Of a DNA stretch of 64,000 nucleotides, positions 1-28,706 are shown piece after piece. The DNA is from Tubiluchus corallicola. Taxonomy: Eukaryota > Priapulida > Priapulimorpha > Priapulimorphida > Tubiluchidae. Each line of letters opens with the position of its first letter. The stretch's first letter is position 1. The stretch covers positions 124,001-188,000 of the forward strand of contig JAQGDQ010000331.1 in NCBI GenBank assembly GCA_030141605.1. Reading direction: 5' to 3'. A model generated the notes under the pieces. That model had not been told where the DNA came from and searched no databases. It saw only the letters and a list, made by a program, of their open reading frames with translations. The position numbers were made by a program, and so were the translations under genes.

Positions 1-2279
1 CACGAAATAAATTTAATAGCTACAACAGGAAACTCAAAAATAAATATTATATTAATAAATGCAATGATGCAACTACACCTAAGCAAAAATGGCGTTTAAT
101 TAATGACGTACTTAACAGGTACAGAAACGATCAATTACAAATAAATAGTTTACGAGAAAATGACAGTATAATATCTGATCCAGTTGACATTGCTAACAAA
201 TTAAATTCCACATTTATCAATCTCGGAAAATTTGACAACTTGCCACACCAACATACTGCAAATATACACAATATATACAAAAACAAATCAGTAATACAAT
301 CCACTTTCTCATTTACTAGCGTCACAGAATACGACATCTTTAGAATATTAAACAGTTTAAATATAAATAAAGGAAGTGGACCCTCAGACATGCCAATAAA
401 AATCTTAAAAGACTGTGCCAGCATCATTACTCCTCATCTAACATATATCACAAACCAAGTCTTAATGCGCTCAGAATTTCCAGCAGTGTGTAAACAAGCA
501 AACATAACTCCAATACACAAGAAAGATGCTAAAGATGACGCTAAAAGCTACAGACCAATCTCAGTAGTGCACGTACTAGCCAACGTATTTGAAAGAGTTA
601 TCTACAACCAAATAAACCATTACATTGAAAATAATAAGTTACTGTCAAATCATCAATTTGGTTTTAGAAAACTACATTCTACAATAGACGCGATAATTGA
701 TGCCACTAAAAAGTGGCGTTACAACTTAAATAAAAATAAATATATAACAGCAGCATTTTTAGATCTAAGTAAAGCTTTTGACAGCCTCGATCACAATTTA
801 CTACTAGACAACTTACGCCAACTAGGATTCGATTATACTTCTCTCAAACTAATTAATAATTACCTACACAATAGAAAACAAAGAGTCAAGCTGAACAAAC
901 ACACTTTTTCAACATGGGACACACCACAGAGAGGCATCCCACAAGGTACGATATTAGGTCCATTACTCTTTTGTTTATACGTAAATAAAATTCATTTAGT
1001 TTTACATAATTCAGACTTAACACAATATGCCGATGATACAACACTCTATACAGCACAAGCAGACTTTCTAACATCAAAAAATAATCTAGAAAAAGACATA
1101 ACAAATATAAATGCAGCATTTAACTATTTTGGTTTAAAAATGAATGATGATAAGACAGAATTTATGGTAATATCACCCAAATCAAATGACATTACTTCTT
1201 CTAATGCAACACTAAAAGTAGGTGACTGTTCCATAGAACAAGCAAAAACTGTAAAATTTTTAGGCATTACAGTCGACAATAAACTCACTTGGGATGAACA
1301 GTTTCATCAAATACACAACAAGATGGCATTAAGCACGACATGCTTACGCCAAACCAGAGGCCATCTAACCAAGAAAACAAAAATTCTCATCTACAAAAGT
1401 CTAATATTACCACATTATCTATATGGTTGCACTTTACTTCAAAACGTTAAATATGAAAACTTTAGAAAACTAAATACAATGCAAAACTACGCACTTAGAT
1501 TAATTCATGGTTACTCTAACAAAACTGCTAAACAACATGCTGCTTCTTCAACAAGCTTAAGAACGTCTACAAAAATACCAATATTAGAAGCCTATCGAGA
1601 TTACAAAACACTGATATTTCTTTATAAATATATAAATAAACTGAGCATTCCATTTATAAACAATCCCTTGGCATTTATTCCTGATACCACTTTAAACACT
1701 AGAACATACAATTTAAAGCAAATTACAGTAAACAATAAATTTGGAAATAACTCTATATCAAAACAGGCCATACATTTATGGAACTTACTACACAGTGAAA
1801 TAAAACAAATAGAATCTCTCCACCACTTTAAAAAGAAATAAAAAGAATATCAATATAACAGGTTTCAACTTCCACATTGTGCATCTGATACTAATTACAC
1901 ACACTCCACTTTCATCTACCCCCGCCCCTGACTCCATATAACGATTAAAAATGAAAATTTAAAAAAAAATTATGTAATGTAATACGTGTTATGTTAGTTT
2001 CGTGTTTCGTAATGTTAAATGTATAAATAGTGTACACTATGTCATGTAAAATTTAATGTACTTTCGCGTAATTGTTTTGTAAAAATATTTTAATATGGTG
2101 TTTGTAAATATGTTCATTTATTGTATATAGTTTTGCACTTTAGTTTTTTTTAGTATGCACTGGACGCATTTGTCTTGAACAGTGTGGTTGTTTTAACATT
2201 GCACTGAGGCTAGCTCAATTTTATTGTAATGAGTGAGCCGTTTTTTATGACAAATAAAGAATTAATATATATATATATT
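1..2279 (+). mobile_element. CR1/L2/Jockey-group LINE, 3' part
   Basis: The ORF2 fragment is followed by about 440 bases of AT-rich 3' UTR. The apparent 3' end is a short run of AATAAAG plus TA-type simple repeat at about 2250-2279, as CR1/L2-like LINEs often end in a short repeat rather than a long poly(A). The exact 3' boundary is inferred from the loss of composition and the terminal repeat. The 5' end is not in the window. Confidence 0.8.
3..1841 (+). CDS. LINE ORF2 reverse transcriptase, 5' end outside window
   Basis: The frame is open from base 3 without a stop to TAA at 1839-1841 (612 codons), so it enters from the left; no ATG within the window can be called its start. It is the reverse transcriptase half of a non-LTR retrotransposon ORF2, which copies its own RNA into DNA at a nicked target site. 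Visible RT motifs, in order: the fingers block around KSYRPISVV, QFGFRK, palm motif A (AAFLDLSKAFD), motif B (RGIPQGTILGPLLF) and the catalytic YADDT. After the thumb come FLGITVDNKLTW and the C-terminal region typical of the CR1/L2/Jockey superfamily; no RNase H domain follows. The endonuclease would lie upstream of the window. No frameshift or stop is seen, so the copy is either young or under selection. The clade assignment is by recall of motif style; membership of the RT family is certain. Confidence 0.93.
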   Translation, partial: RNKFNSYNRKLKNKYYINKCNDATTPKQKWRLINDVLNRYRNDQLQINSLRENDSIISDPVDIANKLNSTFINLGKFDNLPHQHTANIHNIYKNKSVIQSTFSFTSVTEYDIFRILNSLNINKGSGPSDMPIKILKDCASIITPHLTYITNQVLMRSEFPAVCKQANITPIHKKDAKDDAKSYRPISVVHVLANVFERVIYNQINHYIENNKLLSNHQFGFRKLHSTIDAIIDATKKWRYNLNKNKYITAAFLDLSKAFDSLDHNLLLDNLRQLGFDYTSLKLINNYLHNRKQRVKLNKHTFSTWDTPQRGIPQGTILGPLLFCLYVNKIHLVLHNSDLTQYADDTTLYTAQADFLTSKNNLEKDITNINAAFNYFGLKMNDDKTEFMVISPKSNDITSSNATLKVGDCSIEQAKTVKFLGITVDNKLTWDEQFHQIHNKMALSTTCLRQTRGHLTKKTKILIYKSLILPHYLYGCTLLQNVKYENFRKLNTMQNYALRLIHGYSNKTAKQHAASSTSLRTSTKIPILEAYRDYKTLIFLYKYINKLSIPFINNPLAFIPDTTLNTRTYNLKQITVNNKFGNNSISKQAIHLWNLLHSEIKQIESLHHFKKK

Positions 2280-3204
2280 AAAGCAAAATGACTTGTCATT
2301 TTGTCAGATTAAAAAATTTCAAAAGTGACAGGTTTCAAAACTGTCAAAGAGAGGAACTTGTCATTTTTGTTTTTCTAGGCGGCCTAAATATAAATTCCTT
2401 TTTAATCATTTGCATTCCGTTAACCGATGTTTACTTTATACTCTTAGATAGAAAGACACCTTCTACAAAATAGAATAGCCATTTTTTATTGATTATCATA
2501 ATATCATCGAGCTTTATAATTTTTCTTATGAAACCCGTTAGTGATTCAAGTTCTGATAAGTTTCAAAATTCGTTTATTAAACTCTGAATAAACTATATGA
2601 ATAAACTTCACCAGTGTATCTTACCTGCAAAAACTCGTACAAGTAGACAGCTTGTTATTATTGCACTGATTAATAAAAATTTCACACGTGGACCCATTAT
2701 CTCTAATAATTTAATACCTGCGTAGGATCTGACAGGTAGCCCTGCTGTTTTTCTGCAAGCTCTCCAAGCTTCTACGTGTACAACGCCCGAAGCTATCTAC
2801 TTGAATTCACAGTGGAATTTCAAGAGCAGTTCAGTTTTACACGAAAAACCTACTCTTATTATCCTCACAATAGGGATACAATTGCTTGGGGCATTTTTCC
2901 TTCGCTCTGGATTTAAACCGGAATGCCATCTGACGACGTTTTGTTGTTGTTAACTTGTTCCACTGTCCGCACGTTAAGGACTGCTGGGTTAACTTCAAGT
3001 TCCGATAATATTTGCCAATTTTGTGATTATATGTACACCCATTTACTTTGCTCCACGCTACTTTAAAGACAAACTTTCTTGCTATAATTCGTATATTTTG
3101 CAAATAACTTTGAATTTCTTAAAATGACTCACGTTTCTTTTTAAAAAATTAAATGCTTCATAGATTGCACCAGTTAATGGTTTTTTTGACAGACGAGATG
3201 ATGC

Positions 3205-3542
3205 CACGTACTTATAGGCGAGCGGGCCGATTTTTCCAAGATGGTTGAGCCACTTTTGCCCGACTGAATGTGCAGCGCCAACCCCCTCCAGCCAAAAAAA
3301 GAACTGGCAAAACATTGCCCCACCCCACCCATGATAAAAAAATCCCGGACTTCGGGCACTTCATTTGGCGGCATTGAGGAATTTTGACATTTCCTTTTAT
3401 AAAAATTAGTAATTTATTTTTTTCATCATTTGGCTGGTAACCGAAAAATTTGGTAATTGCCCGAAAAAAATGTGTTTGCTCGAATCCGAGAGGCTGCAAC
3501 ACCCTTTCCCAGCCCCCCCCGGCTCGTACGCTTATACACGTG
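3205..3542. mobile_element. MITE-like repeat with imperfect terminal inverted repeats
   Basis: This 338-bp block is much richer in G and C runs than its surroundings. It is bounded by imperfect inverted ends: CACGTACTTATAGGCGAGCG on the left, and on the right the reverse complement CACGTGTATAAGCGTACGAG. There is no coding potential inside. I did not find a convincing target-site duplication, and the family is unknown to me. Confidence 0.4.
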
Positions 3543-5230
3543 CTTGGCATAATATCAGAACAAAATATTTCAAATCTTTATGTTACAAATAAACAGAGAA
3601 AATGGCTTTTAAATTGCCCAAGTTTATGTATCAAGATGAAATGTTGTTAGAAAAATAATCTATGAAAAGAAAAAAAGCTTTATAGAATTCACTTTTAATT
3701 AAATTTATAATTACTGTACGCTTAGCAGTTTTATTATGATACAGTTGATACTGCAATGGTACCTTTAACTCTTAAAACTTCCAATTTCCTGTTACTGACT
3801 TAACGTTGCTAATACTATCCAGAGAATATGTATTTGGAAAGTGAATAATCCCTTTTCAGTTTTCATAGTAAGCGCATTTTACAGAAATTTTCGAGATCGA
3901 CCACGCATTTCAGCGAACACGCATATCAGTACGGGCAGTCTAGAAAGCAAAACAAAAAAATGTTTTACACAAGAGTATTATGCTCAAAATTATTAATAAA
4001 CCTTTCAAGGCATGCCTGAACATTTATGTGCTGCATAGTTCAATTATTCGTAGCATCGGTATAAGCTTAATCGAAGTAGTACTATTTGTTGTATGAAGTG
4101 TTTCCCTCACCCCCACCCATATTATGTTTTCGCTCTCGTCTTATCTTGTTGGAGTCTGAAGGCATGAGGCGATATTATTTGATTGCAGTGATATAGGCTC
4201 ACTAATAATTCCCATATAATTTTCATTTCAAGGTACAAGGCGGTACATACGCAGAGTTTTAATGGCAGCTAAATCTCTGCCAGAAAGTAACGTTATCATC
4301 TCTTATGCTTCTACTTTTACATTATACTAGCAAAGAAAATTTACGGTGTTGTTATCCTGCAGATGCACATAATCTCTTAGCATTTACATACACACCATTT
4401 GCTAATCTTACGACGATTAGCAAATCGAGCAGTCGAGCCATTCCCCTGCAAACATCCTGTGCCCGGAAATTCAGCACTGCAAATGCGATGGTTAATCGAC
4501 TGTAATAAACCATATGTTTTGAAAAGGCGTGAGTTTTTTAAACCGTATGTGCGGAAAACTGCTGGTGACATTCTGACGTTCCTGGTCAGAGATTAAATTC
4601 AGAGATTAAATTATGACTAAATTACAAATCAAACGATTTGCACAGGGCTTAAAAAAGAACCCACATCTACCCCTATACCTGTTAGCTAATAATTGCATTG
4701 ATACTACATACCGGTTGAGCATAACTAGACATAGTCTGGATAACTTAAATAACTTACATTTGTATGATAGTTCATTATGTTACTAACGTATATATCCTTG
4801 TGTATGAAATTTGAACCATTCGTAGTGTTCTAATAAGCTTCATCAGCATAACATAGAGGTACTAAAAGATCTATATTTATATGAGTTATTTATAATACAA
4901 ATAATTTCATTTTAATAGAAAATACAAGCAAACTGTACTTAAAAAATGCGAAAAACTTAATACAGTGCATATATATAGTACAACGCACTTTTTTGAACAA
5001 AATGCAGGTTTACTAGTTCTGAGCTCTTTTGCCTTGTAAATTAAGATGTAATCAAGTATTTTCAGCTGTTACACAAAATCACTTAACAGTGTGAGTCATG
5101 TATATTGAAATTCTATCTCTTTAGAGAGAAATATTTAACATGAAACCCATTGAAGGTTTATTAGCGTTTATTTGTGAACACTCAACGTATGGTCTTGTTA
5201 TGAATGTCTTAGTTTATTTTGGCAGTTGAA

Positions 5231-5384
5231 AACATGTGGTCCATGTTACACGTGTGATACCGCATCCGCACACAAGAACACTAGAGCAAGAGTGTTCTTC
5301 AGCACGACATACCAAGATTTTTCTATTTCGCTGACGGTGTTTAAGCTGATTATAGAAGGATTTGTGTGTTCAGTGAAAAACATG
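5231..5384 (+). promoter_or_regulatory. Candidate first exon ending in ATG plus donor
   Basis: A locally GC-richer stretch ends in gaaaaacATG directly followed by GTGAGT, a strong donor. If used, the exon would supply only the initiator Met in phase 0. That is compatible with the phase-0 second exon of the downstream CRMP gene at 23347, and the protein would then begin M-SAQNR. A CACGTG-like E-box lies near 5249. An ATG followed by a donor can arise by chance, so this is only a candidate. Confidence 0.2.
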
Positions 5385-6585
5385 GTGAGTATTTTTTGAC
5401 CATTTATTTATTACATGTGTGTTATGCCAACTTCTAAGTGAAGCTTTGTGCAGTTTTGCCCATGAAGCTTTTCCGTTGACGCCATGCTGTGCAAAGCTAT
5501 TTATTTTCAGGGTGTTGCTCACATGCAGTTCATGTATTTTAGTATGAGATTTTTGAATTGTTAATTAAATCAGTTTGCTCCAGATATAGCAGTATAGGGA
5601 CCATAACATACAGCTGAAAGTTTAATAGACATGCTTTACTTTTTTGAAAAGTCTTCTAATTACATATTTCGACCTATTAGAATAATTGCACTGCGATCTA
5701 CTATAGCTTTGGATGTACGTTACCATTTTTCAAGTTTTATCATGTGCATATACTTTTAACGTGTACAAATACTTCACAGCATCATGTCAGCTTCAAGTAA
5801 AGGTATGTTATGAAACTTGGTAAAGTACAGTGAGCAGCTCTGTAATTGCTATGTCCTTGTAATAGTTATGATGCTCGGGTCACGCTGTTCACTTTCAGTT
5901 TAAATTTCTTTCACTATGTGGCAGCACATGCTTAGCATCACAGAAGTCGAGGAATTCTTTTCAACTGTGTAAAATGAAATTACTAAAATCATTTAATGGT
6001 CTCCAACTTCCTCAGACATTTAGACAGAGCCTGCAAACGTTTGTATCAACAGTTTTTGGTTATTACTGTTATTTTTATGTACATAGATTAGTAATTTAAA
6101 AAGGCAGTGGTGTTAAGTACGACTAACAATTAAACAGCTCTGTTTATTACATATTTATTCCTGTTTACACATCAAAGGCAAAGACCTAATGAAACTTTTA
6201 TGAATTTTTAATTTTTGGATGCTTGGAGCAAATCACAATATTTTGTGCTTTTCGTTTTTGTTTTTTTTATGCTTCGTGTTTAGCTCAGATAATACTTGGA
6301 GAAATTGTCTATTTCTTGTTTGGATCATCACTTTGGCTTCGAGTTTCGTGCCTCGTGCTACATTTCTGTACATTGATATTCTATATATTTTATATATGCA
6401 ATACAAGTAAAATCGTTTAAAATGAATCAGATTAGGAAGCCGACTGCGTATGCATGACTCATCTGTCTCTTCAAACATAACCCGATGAATCACAGCCTAA
6501 TGTTTTCACAAGGCAATTTGTTTGATTTACTGCACCCATCAAATGTGAATGAATAGAACAATAGAAAATACAAGAGAACTCGTCC

Positions 6586-8855: not shown

Positions 8856-10353
8856 CCCAGTTTTCGGTGAAATCCCTTTTTTGTTCTTTATTCAGTTATC
8901 AAATAACCTTTGTCAACTACTCGTTTGGCAGCTTTTGGTCAGAATTTCGCATATTTTAACTTTTCTAGGCCAATTTTTCAATGTTTTTGTGCTTTTTGTT
9001 GATCGTCGCTAATGATCGCAAATCGACTAAAATATTTTACTCTGTGGCCGATTCGTCTGTTATTCTCTATCGAGTGGTGGTTATGCCACTCAAGCCATCC
9101 AAGATACAGAAATTGATTTGTTGTCGATCTCTGAATGATTACTGATCGTATTCCACATGAGAGAGTTTGGTTCTTTGGACAGAGCTTGTGTAAGTTTTCC
9201 ATTTGACATTAATACTGCAAAAGCGTTTCTAACAGCAGGCGAGCCCAACTATTAATGACATCCCAAACTAACATAATTTTCAACAGCAAAAATATTCCAC
9301 GAGGGTGTTGCACGTGTTTGCGAAAGCTAAAATTGAAGTACAGCACTACCGTAAGATATTCAGTGTGCTCTACTAAAACTAGGCATGTTTTAAGATAAAA
9401 ATTCAAATTTACCGGTGTGCTCACGCATGAACTGTCCAACGTGTGTAGTTTGTCAGAAACTAACACATCAGTACTGAAAGGTACAGCACATATTTTTTGT
9501 GCAATACGATGAATGCGTTTCCAAAATGCAGGCGCTATTGCCCGTCTAACTAGCGAATGGCGATCGCGAACGCGAAATTGTGTTTGTGTGGTAATCATTC
9601 TTTCATGTAAGTAATTTCTAAAAAAATAGTATGTTTACTTTCAATATTTTAAAGAGTAGATTGTTTTGACCTACAGTTTAAGATTGGGTCCGGTTTTGCT
9701 TTTGCTGTGCCGCTTCATCCAAAACCGTACTTTAATTCTCGAGACGTAGAAATTCAACTCCTTTTCTTTTTGATCATTTAGTGACCGCTAATTAACTATG
9801 TGAAAAAAGAGGCTACATGTATTTTGGCCCTGAGGCTGGGCGCTGTCGGGATGAGGGGTTGGGGATATTGAAACGCCAGAAACCACTACACACTACATTT
9901 CATTTTCTTCCAAGTTAGGTGGAGTGTTTTGGGTACTTTAGACCTTGTTTAGGGCAAAAGTTGGTTATATTCAAGCAAATAATTCTGCTTTAAAATTTCC
10001 AAACTTAAGATTTTAATATTCAAAAATTACTTACGTACTTTTAAAGTGTTTCTTGCACAGCGATGTGTTTTTAACTTTTAATAATAATAATAGTACCTGC
10101 TATCAAATTTAGTTCACTAAACTACGTAAATCATTCATACACTGTTTAAGTACTGCTTTTCAATGTACTTAATGTACATTAACTTTTCAATGTAAAGGTT
10201 ATAAACATGTTTGTAAAGTTTGTAAAAGAAAAATATAGACCGTCATAATTTGTTTGAATTTCTGAAACAAATGTTAGAAAAAGTATATCAGAAAATATTT
10301 GTATCTTTGTTTAGTGAAAACACGAAACTTTGACTTGTGACTTTTTAGACTTT

Positions 10354-10651: not shown

Positions 10652-12079
10652 TTAAACCTGCTTTAAATTTGCACATGTGTAAGATAATGTAAGTTCATAT
10701 AAGAGAACATTTCCAAGTTTCTCTGTCTGACTTTCGTCAATCTTCCAGCATTTGTTGCCCGTGAACTCGTCAAGGGACAACGCTGTGGTCTCATTGTTGA
10801 AATGCAGTTGCAGTTCTTTTTCAGAATAACTCCAGGATCCTAGTTCCAATATAAAATTCGTAGGTTCTGTTCTACCAAGGTCTGGGTTGTACACTTCAAA
10901 TTTTACAGGTGCTTTCCAAACAACAGTTCCATTGTGATTTGCTATAACATCAACTTCTTCGTGTGGAAATCGCTTTATAGTATAACTGTTGAAAGAAGTT
11001 AGTTGAAAGAAGTTGAAACATCAAGTCAGTTTACTAAATTAAATTCAGTTGACTGTTAATTAATTCGCTACATACTCAGATACCGTTGGCGCTATATTAA
11101 TTTTATAAACTCGATTTGTAAGTGTTTGGTAGAACTGCTATAAAGGTGTTTTCACATGTGCAAAATATATTACCTGTTTTATATACTATTACTATAGTAT
11201 ATAGTTTACCTGTTGAGTAATGATACATCCGGTTTCCAGATGTTATTTTCGTCTATATGTATAAATTCAGTATCAGATTTCTCCACGTCCCATCTAAGTC
11301 TGTCATCTTTCCATTTCTAAATTTGAATAGAAAAGGTAAATTAGATTCGATATCGAGATGAAATTTTCAATTCTTTCATTCGCTAGTTTCTTCATTCATT
11401 CATTCATTCATTCTAAAGACGATAATTTTAATTATACGTGCTTACAGTTGTCATGACTCCCACGAGAATCAGAACATTGGCTTCCTCATCTACACTGAGA
11501 TGTCTAAGAGACAGAGTAAGTTCGACATTTAGTGGTCTCTCATCGTGCTGCTCTGGGATTTGTACGAACCCTATGTATTCAAGGCGCTTGGCGAGGACTT
11601 GCTCTGGTCTTCTTCTGTCGCGACCAATTCCTAATCGATCAAATAAACTGGCTTCACGACTCTTACTTTCTGATTGGGGAATTCTATCAAAATCCGGATC
11701 AATTCCCGGGCGAAACAGATTCGGGAAATTGTCGCTTCCAGATTCGGAATCGCTGTCTTCAGTGAATCGATCAAAGAAATCTCCATCTCTACCTCCACGA
11801 AATCGTTTAAAAAAACTTGGCCTGCCATTTCTCAAGCCTGTAAATTATTCGTATAAGCATTTACAACGTGTACGTAGCGTACATGTATCTACACAAAGGA
11901 TAAGTGAAAAAATTAAAAACTTTAATTAGATGATGTCGTCTTGAAAATATTGCATCGTGTAAATTTTACTTGTTTTGAACGTGTTTTGAAGAATTTTTCT
12001 CACCTGCGCGATGCCCTTCTGCTTGAGCAGCAAAGTTAAGACCATAAATAATCAAACACGCCAAGCCCAATTTCATCAT
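10652..12079 (-). CDS. Secreted AChBP-like protein (Cys-less ligand-binding domain), paralogue 1
   Basis: Four exons (12004-12079, 11446-11837, 11210-11316, 10652-10985) join in frame to 302 residues. A signal peptide is plain (MMKLGLACLIIYGLNFAAQA). Next comes a charged Arg/Asp/Ser-rich stretch (about residues 26-95) that has no place in the family. A pentameric ligand-gated channel extracellular domain follows: PLNVELTLSLRHLSVDEEAN, WKDDRLRW, the loop A region NIWKPDVSLLNSY, and ELGSWSY. The chain stops after the last beta strand with no membrane helix, as in molluscan acetylcholine-binding proteins. The loop between VWKAPVKFEVY and LELGSW has neither Cys-loop cysteine and is about three residues short. 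The vicinal Cys pair of loop C is absent and the loop D Trp is not present, so acetylcholine binding is doubtful. C271 and C296 might pair. N-glycosylation sequons (NGT, NET) fit secretion. It lies 1.0 kb downstream of its paralogue on the same strand. Exon 2 fuses what are two exons in that paralogue. Confidence 0.9.
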
Positions 12080-12353
12080 GCCATACACGTTCTAAGATAC
12101 GTGAAATATCACAACAGCTTATTTCTTTCTTTAGCTAACCAGTGTTACTAAGTGCCCAGAACTTAGAATGCTGAAATAAACTCTTATTTTGTGATTTGGC
12201 AAGCTGGTAATGGCAACAGCTGGCTACTATTTAGTAAGAATTAATTAAAAACTGTAGAGAGTGATTCATGCGTAACATCTGTCATTTACTTCCTTCCCCA
12301 TCCATCAGACAAAAAATAGCTTCAAATACTTATTTTTTTACATGTACATATGG

Positions 12354-12357
<4 letters not shown>

Positions 12358-12437
<80 letters not shown>
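12358..12437. repeat. (CA)n followed by (CACG)n microsatellite
   Basis: About 22 CA units run into nine CACG units, in the spacer between the two AChBP-like genes and just upstream of the start of paralogue 1. Confidence 0.95.
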
Positions 12438-12439
<2 letters not shown>

Positions 12440-13122
12440 ACGCACACGTACACATACACGTATACACATATATACTAGTTAGATAACGAAAAACAGTGTT
12501 TAAATCTTTTTCCCCTGTTCTCGACTGGTGTCTCGTGTCTCTTTTCCACGTGATTGGTGTCCAAAGTTTAGATTTTTGAACTACTGTCTTTTTATTAATA
12601 AAAAGCCCACTTAACTATTACGAACTTGCTAACAGCATATACAGTCCACTGCTTAACTCATGTAATTTTATGTAGTAGGCCCTACAGTCGGACTACTTAT
12701 CCGTGTGAATTGTTATAGTAAGGTTGTTTATTAATAAAAATAGTGTATTACTTGCTATTATTTAGTATAGCTAAACTTATATTATCTGACTGTTTAGTTA
12801 AAAAAAACAGTAATATTTTAAGTATTAAATATTAACATATCTTTTTATTGACAACTACTGTTACACCAGCTAAGGTCTTTACTCATCTGCACTGTGCCAC
12901 GTCAACTTCGTAGCAATAAACAACATTTTATTTCTAACTTAACGCTTGCTACTTTACTGTAGCTCCGGACGAAACTTTATTTCTTAAAATTCTCACCTAC
13001 TTTATGAATTTAGCGGTTATAACACGAAAACTATTGAGAACATTTAGTAAAGTAAATTCTATTGTTTTTTACATTTTGCGTCAGTTAATTTTTTTATTTA
13101 CTGTAATCTGGTTCACACGTGC

Positions 13123-15203
13123 TTACAATTTTGCAACAGTTAGATCATAATTGAACTGTATAAATGGATCAGGGCAGCATGGATGATAGTTTTCCTCACG
13201 CACAGCGGTATTGTTCAGTAAATTCCAGTCATGATTTCCTTCATAGTCAGTGACATCCATCGATTCCAGATCATCAAAGAACGTAAAGTCCAACTCGCTA
13301 GAGATGTAAGACCAGGAACCAAATTTCAAAGTAAACCTAGATGGTGTGTGCTGAATGAAATCTTTCAAGTACACCTGGAATCGACATGGAGTGACCCAGA
13401 TTATCGTTCCAGATGATTGTAGCACTAGATTAACGGGATGGTGCGTAAAGAAGTTTGTGGTGTAGCTGAAATAAAATACAACAGCGAATTGACTATTGAG
13501 TAGCACAATCTGAGTGGCAACATCAAACTAATACGTGAGTAACTTCAAATTAGCGAAAATAATCACAAAGAGTGTGACTGAGTCACGTCAGATAATTTAA
13601 CATTTTAAAGCGAACCGTTAATTATTACGGACTTTTCATATGTCAGTTATTACGGCCTGTACTTTCCTTTAATCGTAAGCAATTAGTCGCTAAAAAGTTA
13701 CCTGCTAAGAAAAATGACAATACCTATTGAAAAGAGCTACATCTGGTAACCAGATGTCATCTTCTGTGACAACAATTGATTTAATATCGTCGTAGTCCTC
13801 TGGATCCCAGGTTAGGCGATAGTCTGTCCAACTCTGAAAAGATTTTGAATTTTCAGTTATGGCACTTTTAATTTGTACCGTTTTACAAGCATGTGTGAAA
13901 GTGAATTAGTGAGGTATGTATTACTTGGGAAAAGCGGATAGAGCTTCGAAAAGAGAAATTGCATTGATTTTGGTACTTGTAAAACTAACGTTGCATGTTT
14001 ATCGTTCGACTCATACAAATGTTTAGTACTTGCAGGCCAAGACTAAGACCCTAAATATAAAATCATAATATGGGTACTTTAGCGCATTTACCTGTTTACT
14101 ATAAGTGTTCACTGTCAGCAAATGAGATCCCGTGTCCTGAAATTGTACGAACATAATAAGCGATTGAACAAATGCTTTAAACGCTCCTACAGCCTTAGAT
14201 CAGACCTACCCTGGATAACTCGTTTCTCCAAAACATGGAGCTAGTTGCCAATTGTTAAGCTTTAGTGCCTAAGTGCCAATTAAGTTCAGGTAGGCAAACT
14301 AACACGCCAAGCTTTACTGAATTATTTACAACATTTAGAAAAATCACTTTAAGGAAACTTTATAAATACATAAGCCAGGTTATTTTGATACATACCACGT
14401 CAAGATGCAGCAGAGAAAGTCCAAACGCCACTTTCAGGGGTGTACCAAGCTCCACTATAGGTATGACGACATGGTTGTAATTGTGAAATAGTTTCTTGTA
14501 AAGCTTTTCTCTGACACTACCTGTTGCCAACCACGCGTTGTGTTCAGTCATTGTCGGGCACGACGTTTTGTCTGTTAAGCAATATTATGTTCATTTTTTA
14601 CATTGTAGTAAAATACACTATCGTGACACTGCTCAATGTAGTATTTTTTTCTATAATTAAACCGTCATATTGAGCTTATAATAAATCATACTACATAATC
14701 TAACATGTTGCAAATAGTAAGACAGCTTAGCTAAATGTTTTTATGATAACAACGTGAAATTTATATATAGATGCGTTTGAAAAAATATGTAACTTCATTT
14801 TTCGAAGCAGTGCCAAGCTGGATATAAAAACTTGTGGCAACCATCTTCAACTACAATATGGCGCCACGTATTACACGTGTCTACGAAAATCTCCACAACC
14901 AAGCATCTTTGTAAACAATTTGCAGTAATGTTACATTAACAGCTTGGTAGAAAATGCAAAATTCTATACTTTGTAGATGGCACACTTACAGATTAGTGGA
15001 AAGTCTCTGATAAAAAGAGAAAATATTATTTCACTGTTTTAGTAAATCTAAGTTGCTATATAAATTCCAATTTTGTGCAATATAACGGATTCTCATTTAC
15101 CTGAACATGTTTTTGCGCCGTCTTCGTCACTTTGATCTTTTCTCTTAGCAAAAACTACGAAGAGAAAAATCAGCACACAGAAAAGTAAGGTAGCCGAGCG
15201 CAT
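13123..15203 (-). CDS. Secreted AChBP-like protein with vicinal Cys pair, paralogue 2
   Basis: Five exons (15101-15203, 14396-14571, 14092-14136, 13724-13833, 13123-13465) join in frame to 258 residues. The 45- and 110-nt exons are the classical sizes of nicotinic receptor exons 3 and 4. A signal peptide (MRSATLLFCVLIFLFVVFA) precedes an extracellular ligand-binding domain: helix 1 (REKLYKKLFHNYN), PLKVAFGLSL, SWTDYRLTWDP, DDIWLPDVALFNSY, KFGSWSY. Loop C is YHPCCPDPF with the vicinal cysteines C241-C242 typical of acetylcholine-binding alpha-type subunits. The chain ends 16 residues later with no transmembrane segment. The Cys-loop lacks both canonical cysteines and is about three residues shorter; an unpaired Cys (C172) sits just before it. 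The loop A Tyr is Phe and the loop D Trp is Tyr; the loop B Trp is kept. The product is probably a soluble pentamer. Whether it binds acetylcholine is inference. Confidence 0.93.
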
Positions 15204-17280
15204 TTTCGTCTAGCTTTTCACTTACGCAAAACCTTTTTAATATTTGTTCAACTTATTTTCAAACACCCAGTCTTCATTCTCCAAGGACATCATACGAAGG
15301 TGGATCTAAGTAACATATACATATTCTTTAATGTACTTTCAACTGTCATTTCTAAATTTGTTTTGCAAATTTCTTTAACAGGCTCCTTATGTTCACGTTT
15401 GATAGGCATTTACTGGCCCTTCTTCTACTAGATTTATAATAATTATTTGTGTTAATAAAATATATCCGGTGACGCCTCCTACATCCATTCGTAACTGCTT
15501 GACAGAATTCAAGAAAACCACCAATAATATTAGCCGAAAATTTTAATTCGCAAGTTCTATAGTGTAATCCTAGTACAGTTTTAATATTGGGCAACAATTC
15601 TGCAAAGCTACGTTTCTCCTGCTTTTCCAGTCCTCCCTTTCCAGAGCGCAAAGATTCAATTAAGATTTGAACTTACAACTAGAGAATGTAATATGTGCTA
15701 CGCTCTTACAACTGATAAAGCTTTTTATCTATTTGTCTACCATTTGAGTAAACGGCCATGCCAACCAGTACAAATTATAAATTCGATCAAAAGCTGATAT
15801 GCCAAAAATGTGATGAACTCTTTAGAAAAAGCATGTCGCTGTATAATCAGTCGTGTGAAACATGAACCTAGGCTAGTCCAGAACTTGGTGAACTTAATCC
15901 CATTTAATTCTGGGTATTGGAAGAAGTTAGCCCTACTTACATATAGATGTTTGATTAAACTTCCTAATTAAATCCGAATTTCTGAAAGTAAAATTGTGTG
16001 AAACACGAGTCGGTCGAAAAACTGATAAGTTACAAATCGAACATATACAAGTGGAAACAGACCTCACGCGATCATATGTAGGCCTGTGTAAGCGACGCTA
16101 AGCCTACTGGTTAACCGGAATCGTACCAGTACTATTGCAAAGCCTATCGAGGACTAACTTCGTTTTCGTTTTCTGAAGTCATTTTGCTTTCCTTTGTATA
16201 TAAATAAAATACATGTATTTCATATCAAAAATAAAATATTGCTGCTATTTTTTGTTCTGGGCATTTTTTATATTACATTCTATTTATCGTCGTATTACGT
16301 GTAACCGTTAGATTAGCTGGATTAACTATAGGGCTGTTAAAACAGGAGTCTGGAGCTGTTGCAACTGGTGTTTTGTGTTCGCGCAAGGCCGACTGGAAAA
16401 TTTGTAAAGGTTCTTAGTCAACTACATAGGTTTATTGCTTGTTAAACTGGGCTTATTCAGTATTTTCCTTAGTAATCCAACCATGTCTAACGCAGCTAAC
16501 CATAATGGTTGAGGTGTGTCATACTGTTAAACTTAGAATGTTCATTATTGTTCGAAGCTCAAACTAAAAGTCCTGGAACGCCTAGTCGCTCTGCGCTGAC
16601 CTATGTGTGTGCGTGTGCTCTGCAACAAATGATTACGATTTGCGTGCACGTGTTTAAAATTAATCAAGTTATTATAAATTAGATACATGTTAACCAGATG
16701 TATATTTTATATGTGGAATTTGATGTTAACTGGTTAACTTCTAAAGCAGGACTTTGTAAATATATGTGGACGATAGATGTCGTAGACCGAGCTTAATTTT
16801 AATCAGTTTATCATACAAACAGGTTTGGGCGACCCCAAGGCGCTTGAGTAGAGTTTAGAGAACTTAAAACAATATCACGTGAAAGCCTGCTTGACAAGGG
16901 AGCGTGGTGATTTGTACTCACAAACTGGTATTTTGCTATTTTTTGACTAGTTTAGCTTTCAACGCAGTCTTGGCAACTTTCTGAGATATTCCAATTTCTA
17001 TGTGTATACAACGTGTGCAAGAATTAGTTTACCCACATACTTACCTATGTTTGTTGTAGTACTGGCGGAATGTTTGTTGTAGTACTGTGTTTGGAATAGC
17101 GTAAATTTAAACATATTTGTGCTGATTTGAAAAGATAACTGTTATACGTCGAAAAAAGCTATAGGTTTATACGTGATGTGAGTGGGTGAATGGTTAATGG
17201 ACATTATAGGAAATTGCTTCCTTTTTAACGGGTTTCTGGTAAGTCGTGAATTATTTCAATTACCGTAACGCGGCTTGACA
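15204..17280. other. Stretch without recognised genes
   Basis: This lies upstream of AChBP paralogue 2 and before the second CRMP-type first exon. The only long frame (15352-15651, minus) shows no family features and starts in what should be the promoter of paralogue 2, so I do not call it. I see nothing else in this stretch. Confidence 0.4.
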
Positions 17281-19331: not shown

Positions 19332-20557
19332 GTAAGACATCCGGGAGACAGGATACTTAGCCTGTGTAAGTCATACAGAAAGCATTGCTCTGATTTGCCG
19401 TAGTTGTTCGAACGGTCACAGTAACTGAAATAGGGCAGTTTATTTTGCCGCAAGAAGATGGCGGCACGTGCTTTAGCCAACTATGCAATTTTGCTAAACA
19501 AACATGAGAATTTAAGTAGGCCCTATAGTATATTATAGCCCAAGCGTTAATGTAATTAACTAACATTGCAGTAAGTCTGCTGCTAGGATTATGGTTTGTT
19601 TATTTATTTATATTGCGATTATTATTTTTTTACTTTTGCAGTTGGATCTTAACTTTTAGCAGCCAACTTAATAGCTGGCTATTACATTCGTCTGCATCTT
19701 GTCTTTGAAATTTATATTATGAAAGATACCATGCTTATTTGTAGGCCGAAGCGAATGCGTGTGCTAAAATCAATAAAATGTTGCAAACTTGTATTTAAGT
19801 GTGAACATTTTCTACAGAAAGCGAATTCTAATCGAATCGAATTTATGACTTTCATGCTCCAATCAAACCGATGTTCATTATTTTCGAATCCGAATCGAAT
19901 TGGAATTCAGTTTTAAAGATTTTCGAATAACTAATAAAAAGCGAACAAAGATCATGCCAGATTTCCGTTCATTGCCTTTCTATTAGAGCTAATTTAGGTT
20001 TATATCTATCACAGGTTTTTTTTTGGTAGAAAACAAGTTGTGCATGTAAATTGGACTATTATTTGCTCTTCATGAATAGCAAATGGGGGTTGGCTGTCCG
20101 GCGTACCAATGAGTCACTGTCAGTTAAATTATTAATGAACTGTGGTACTTGTGCGTATCTATAAAGTTACATTATGCGTTATCGGGGCCTCTAGCGTCTG
20201 GAGCAGCTTGCAAGTGGTTTTGATCAATAGTTTTCCTGGTGCGCGGCTGCTCCGTTGCTCTACTGCATGCTGGTTCCAGTTTATACAACTTCCTCTTCTA
20301 TACATGAATTTAGCCAGCTAGCGAAGATTGTGCGTGTGACAGCCATGAAAAATCGTTTACCCTTCTGTGTGAAAATAAACATTTTAAATCGTACGTATAT
20401 AACTGTTGTTGGATATCACATGGTGTGAAGTCCCGAACGATAGCTTGAGTGAGGTAGCTATAGGCCTAGTAGGCTTAGATTGCTAGCCAATAAGCTATGC
20501 TAGTTGAATACTATTATGTGATTATATAATTTAAGTTGGTTTATAAAAACTGAAAAG

Positions 20558-28706
<8,149 letters not shown>

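Follow-up and report, generated by a model that had tools for sequence, protein, structure and literature searches.

Predicted secreted nicotinic-type ligand-binding proteins without a Cys-loop form a family of at least six genes in the priapulid Tubiluchus corallicola

Among proteins built on the nicotinic ligand-binding domain (LBD), the acetylcholine-binding proteins (AChBPs) of Lymnaea, Aplysia, Biomphalaria and Capitella consist of a leader and the LBD alone (PF02931), and they end after strand beta10. ACCBP, known from Pinctada and Haliotis, is described as an AChBP variant in shell control that is secreted, occurs in the extrapallial fluid and has a mineral-active N-terminal region (PMC3423370, PMC5379566; these and the other papers cited by PMC number are used as far as their accessible portions go). 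Nearly every animal protein of this fold has the Cys-loop disulphide. It is called strictly conserved in the superfamily in PMC3423370, and it is kept in all seven Alvinella receptors (PMC4801368). Exceptions include 8 of 141 oyster LBDs, which have no Cys-loop (PMC6896357), and a class of Cys-less channels in some lophotrochozoans, which keep the loop proline or an [FY]PxD motif (PMC4795631, PMC9874803). Here we describe two neighboring genes, p2 and p1, on the minus strand of a 64-kb window of the Tubiluchus corallicola genome (G000:C816:124001-188000, from an assembly of 343.5 Mb in 2344 contigs), which share the domain plan and the end point of AChBPs and, unlike them, have neither the Cys-loop cysteines nor about three of the loop residues. 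Coordinates are positions in this window unless another contig is named.

The loss of the Cys-loop is seen in both genes and in their nearest relatives in the same genome. The second half of the LBD was aligned in 28 rows, namely six members of the family described here, 19 receptors of the same genome (two of them identical), one further gene of this genome (C1309), human alpha7 and human alpha2. Neither Cys-loop cysteine occurs in any of the six family rows and both occur in all 22 others, a count that refers to the aligned rows and not to all LBD genes of the genome. The genes C1732 and C2, two genes on C2233, the presumed anion-type genes (exons L052-L064), C293 and C2001 stand outside this alignment; by eye, both cysteines are present in the C1732 and C2 open reading frames (ORFs), and the two C2233 genes display the second cysteine alone, the first being in another exon. 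Between the two cysteine positions there are 10 residues in p1 and p2 and 10 or 11 across the family, as against 13 in the 19 receptors and the two human subunits and 14 in C1309. The replacement segment of p2 comprises 12 residues (13333..13368) with Leu and Phe at the former cysteine positions, and that of p1 (10853..10888) has Asn and Phe there. The [FY]PxD motif is found in none of the six family rows and in 21 of the 22 others, C1309 being the exception. Two smaller features are common to the family, a one-residue gap between strands beta1 and beta2 relative to the two human rows and, by eye, an F-[PT]-H-[HE] motif after loop A in all six members.

A first-pass annotation of this DNA had claimed that both genes lack the two cysteines and are shortened by about three residues, and that this loss is shared and old rather than a sequencing error. 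The alignment bears out the first claim, and the second is supported by the same absence in the nearest relatives, which fall in one clade with p1 and p2. Its broader statement on known AChBPs, namely that they retain the Cys-loop disulphide, agrees with PMC3423370 and PMC4569296, with the qualification that cases of loss have been reported from molluscs (PMC6896357). In a literature search made mostly outside subscription papers, no soluble LBD family without a Cys-loop appeared among the titles and abstract openings of the matches listed.

Searching the genome with p2 returned four strong matches beyond the contig of the window (3.9e-32 or better), each a single open frame of 252-272 amino acids; two are in tandem on C127 (C127a and C127b), one is on C1784 and one on C1986. 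Beyond these four, matches are much weaker (1.5e-8 at best). Counts from this search are lower bounds and the family thus has at least six members. Across the LBD, p1 and p2 each share 28-35% identity with the rest of the family and the four single-frame members share 36-56% with one another; the identity with human alpha7 and alpha2 is 20-33%. The six members form a clade with support of 99/93 when the loop columns are included (bootstrap not settled), 92/86 when they are removed and 95/94 on full-length LBDs with nine rows, and a single loss is therefore the simplest reading. Within the clade p2 branches first and p1 groups towards the single-frame genes (89/66 with the loop columns, 82/85 without them, 88/97 on full-length LBDs with nine rows), the internal order being unsettled. 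As far as sequence can tell, this soluble family, with its six or more genes and no Cys-loop, is real and the loss looks old and shared, which supports the distinct soluble family that the first-pass annotation had suggested. One receptor row, C864b, is the same as C864a; it was counted in the 28 rows and dropped from the half-domain trees. These two copies (C864:953-1336 and 14852-15235; L004, L005) are the product either of very recent tandem copying or of duplication in the assembly.

Both proteins appear to be secreted and to consist of the LBD only. Each starts with a hydrophobic leader (judged by eye, with no signal-peptide predictor), and PF02931 is the sole Pfam match at E<=1 (7.6e-36 and 5e-23 for the two proteins). 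The membrane domain PF02932 was not found in either protein at that threshold, and the coding sequence ends ahead of any membrane helix. When 24 membrane-domain query ORFs from the same genome, which represent fewer genes since several derive from overlapping loci, were searched against the 64-kb window with tblastn, there was no match at E<=1; as a control, of the 28 loci in the local set the same queries matched 17 at 1e-5, some of these being the loci they came from, and the C127 and C1309 loci were not among the 17. A local hidden Markov model (HMM) of the membrane region gave, in the window, only matches above the inclusion line, the best of which (E 0.18) is at 19564 on the opposite strand. 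Another HMM match (E 0.26) is in an ORF on the strand of the genes about 1 kb past p1 (9212-9634); this ORF has no nicotinic Pfam match, and its sole Pfam match at E<=0.1 is weak, below the cut-off and to an unrelated family. The four single-frame relatives likewise contain PF02931 alone at E<=0.01, with no membrane domain. The secreted, LBD-only form proposed for the two genes is thus supported by the leader, the Pfam result and the lack of a significant membrane-domain match in the window.

A new pair of cysteines is present in five of the six members, one in strand beta9 and the other at the end of strand beta10, and p2 has neither. In p1 they are encoded at 10748..10750 and 10673..10675 (placed by alignment), and both are still present although the beta9-beta10 hairpin of p1 is shorter; their retention in the shortened hairpin is compatible with a bond. 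The pair is a candidate replacement disulphide. With p2 possibly the first branch of the family, the two cysteines may postdate its split.

The ligand site differs widely among members. Its positions are given in what we take to be alpha7 numbering. C127a keeps the full aromatic box (Trp55, Tyr93, Trp149, Tyr188, Cys190-191, Tyr195), as nicotinic subunits do, and one change each is seen in C127b (Phe for Tyr93), C1784 (Phe for Tyr188) and C1986 (Leu for Tyr188). The loop C Cys-Cys pair, which is shared with AChBPs, is present in p2 (13174..13179) and the four single-frame relatives. Besides this pair, p2 keeps the loop B Trp and Tyr and is altered at four box positions, with Tyr for Trp55, Phe for Tyr93, His for Tyr188 and Phe for Tyr195. 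In p1 the box reads Val, Leu and Trp, its loop D position being alignment-dependent; only the loop B Trp-Tyr is kept, and the tip of loop C is lost. The earlier statement that p2 retains the Cys-Cys pair and several aromatic residues and that p1 has lost them therefore stands, except for the loop B Trp-Tyr of p1.

With the first 20 residues removed, calculated isoelectric points in the family are 4.8-6.0. The N-termini are mostly acidic and in part rich in His and Asp, one with runs of Asp. The acidic extension is clearest in C1784, where 16 of 33 residues are Asp or Glu. In p1, the leader and the LBD are separated by a stretch rich in Arg, Phe, Asp and Ser, some 60 or more residues long, which is absent from the other five members.

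Our favored reading, to which we assign a probability of about 0.55, is that p1 and p2 are functional members of an at least six-strong family of secreted, membrane-free LBD proteins, and the six proteins are most likely secreted binding proteins related to AChBP and possibly to the mollusc mineral protein ACCBP. A more specific account is tentative and we would place it somewhat short of even odds. It views the family as a separate soluble branch that lost the disulphide as well as the Pro-loop tip a single time, gained a disulphide between beta9 and beta10, multiplied through retroposition and divided into ligand-binding and ligand-blind members with an extracellular, possibly mineral, task. 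Under the favored reading, the ancestor of the family would be a nicotinic-type gene with introns in which the coding sequence stopped after strand beta10. In a receptor the loop touches the pore; with no channel to couple to, it could have been free to shorten, and the single clade suggests that the disulphide and roughly three residues of the loop were lost once. From its position, the cysteine pair at the two ends of the beta9-beta10 hairpin may hold that same end of the domain together. The four single-frame members are best read as probable retrocopies and their duplicates. Rings of five in the body fluid would be expected. Acetylcholine or a cation like it would be the ligand of members with an intact box such as C127a, p2 might bind acetylcholine weakly or take another ligand, and p1 would bind none at that site. 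The acidic, partly His/Asp-rich N-termini may hint at a role that faces calcium or mineral, like that of ACCBP in molluscs.

Several results weigh against this picture. The clade obtained without the loop columns (92/86) is below the level that the tree program marks with its star. The first-pass annotation had treated p1 and p2 as a pair of subunits that might co-assemble; the pairing was not borne out, with p1 leaning to the single-frame genes and four further members in the family, and yet p1 and p2 as sisters are not rejected (p-AU 0.51, the constrained tree being slightly better, and 0.35 on full LBDs with nine rows). The branch of p1 is long, and this gene could be in decay. The four single-frame genes form a clade in one tree (88/82) and elsewhere are merely not rejected as one (p-AU 0.48 and 0.66), and a single retroposition is therefore not established. 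AlphaFold on the alignment of the p2 and p1 last exons was uninformative, with a mean predicted local distance difference test score (pLDDT) of 37 for the last exon of p2, and was discarded. The N-terminus of C1986 is barely acidic, with two Asp or Glu among 12 residues.

It may be argued that these are mineral proteins of the ACCBP type. ACCBP too is described as an extracellular AChBP relative, the family N-termini are mostly acidic where ACCBP has its mineral-active region (PMC3423370, PMC5379566), and intronless genes of the nicotinic acetylcholine receptor type exist in molluscs (PMC6896357). However, the accessible text of PMC3423370, which holds the Cys-loop disulphide to be strictly conserved, names no ACCBP exception. 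We regard membership of this type, the main rival, as less likely than not. The family may also link AChBP to the mollusc mineral proteins. It is likewise doubtful that the six are ordinary acetylcholine-buffering AChBPs whose lack of a Cys-loop would be no more than a neutral quirk in soluble proteins. The LBD-only form with a leader, the full box of C127a and the variable Cys-loop length among AChBPs (PMC4569296) would fit; the lost box of p1, the four changed positions of p2 and the separate LBD-only gene C1309, which has its Cys-loop, speak against it, and a beta9-beta10 pair in five of the six members sets the family apart from AChBPs.

Two further explanations carry much less weight. If p1 and p2 were truncated pseudogenes or fragments of channel genes, the long branch of p1 would be accounted for. 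We hold this improbable, as the frames are open across five and four exons with canonical splice sites, six genes end at about the same point, the window gave no significant match to the membrane domain and an AATAAA lies 25 nt after the p2 stop. Membership of the Cys-less Pro-loop receptors of protists, flatworms and other invertebrates would explain the absent cysteines, as in the class of some lophotrochozoans (PMC4795631, PMC9874803). These receptors are channels that keep [FY]PxD, and their proline is defining according to the accessible part of PMC4795631, whereas the motif is found in none of the six, no membrane domain was detected, and the solved structures closest to p2 are the nicotinic alpha2, beta3 and alpha7 subunits, from which the family differs in its missing membrane domain and Cys-loop. 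We reject Pro-loop membership on the missing motif and the undetected membrane domain, with a negligible chance left to it. Under the favored reading of a secreted family, it is relevant that Cys-less receptors must form and stabilise the same fold in some other way (PMC4795631, accessible portion). A soluble family with an apparent single loss, in which five members have a cysteine pair that could substitute for the lost bond and p2 has no such pair, would be a natural test set for this without a membrane domain.

C1309 (L011, about 2085-5650 of its contig, minus strand) is an LBD-only gene of the same genome. It has introns of the usual type (exons by eye), a 110-nt exon and a basic C-terminal tail rich in Arg and Gly. 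It is nearest to alpha7 and snail AChBP type 1 (4aod) is among its matches, and from its sequence it is perhaps the classical AChBP-type protein of this animal. As C1309 is present, the Cys-less group is no stand-in for a missing Cys-loop AChBP-type protein.

The gene models comprise nine exons and seven introns rebuilt from sequence, all introns being GT-AG and in phase. p2 (258 amino acids, 5 exons, minus strand, 15203 to 13123) begins with exon 1 (15101..15203), which encodes the start codon, the leader and an acidic N-terminus. It continues with exon 2 (14396..14571; N-terminal helix and first strands of the LBD, also from Pfam), the 45-nt exon 3 (14092..14136; the loop D region with Tyr replacing Trp55, from the alignment), the 110-nt exon 4 (13724..13833; the loop A region, from the exon-length pattern) and exon 5 (13123..13465; the remaining LBD and the stop codon). 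A micro-exon between exons 1 and 2 was considered and dropped, as it would introduce a stop. p1 (302 amino acids, 4 exons, minus strand, 12079 to 10652) consists of exon 1 (12004..12079; start codon and leader), exon 2 (11446..11837; the p1-only N-terminal insert, placed by alignment, and then the start of the LBD), the 107-nt exon 3 (11210..11316; the loop A region, again from the exon-length pattern) and exon 4 (10652..10985; the remaining LBD and the stop codon). An exon of 110 nt like exon 4 of p2, a point of likeness to nicotinic subunit genes, is also possible in all seven of the other LBD genes with introns that match the pattern in this genome, and p1 has 107 nt there. An AATAAA follows the stop codon by 255 nt in p1, compared with the 25 nt in p2; given 108 AATAAA on the minus strand of the window, or about one per 590 nt, that of p2 alone is nearer than chance suggests. 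Between the two genes, upstream of the p1 start codon, there is an AC-rich tandem array with a 4-base unit (12358-12459).

Elsewhere in the window, the ORF at 24770-25153, which has a single weak, below-cut-off Pfam match, presumably resembles another exon of a dihydropyrimidinase-type gene. On the plus strand, positions 27971-28279 contain an exon of a dihydropyrimidinase or dihydropyrimidinase-related gene, which perhaps starts from 24770; its best PDB match has an E-value of 2.5e-19.

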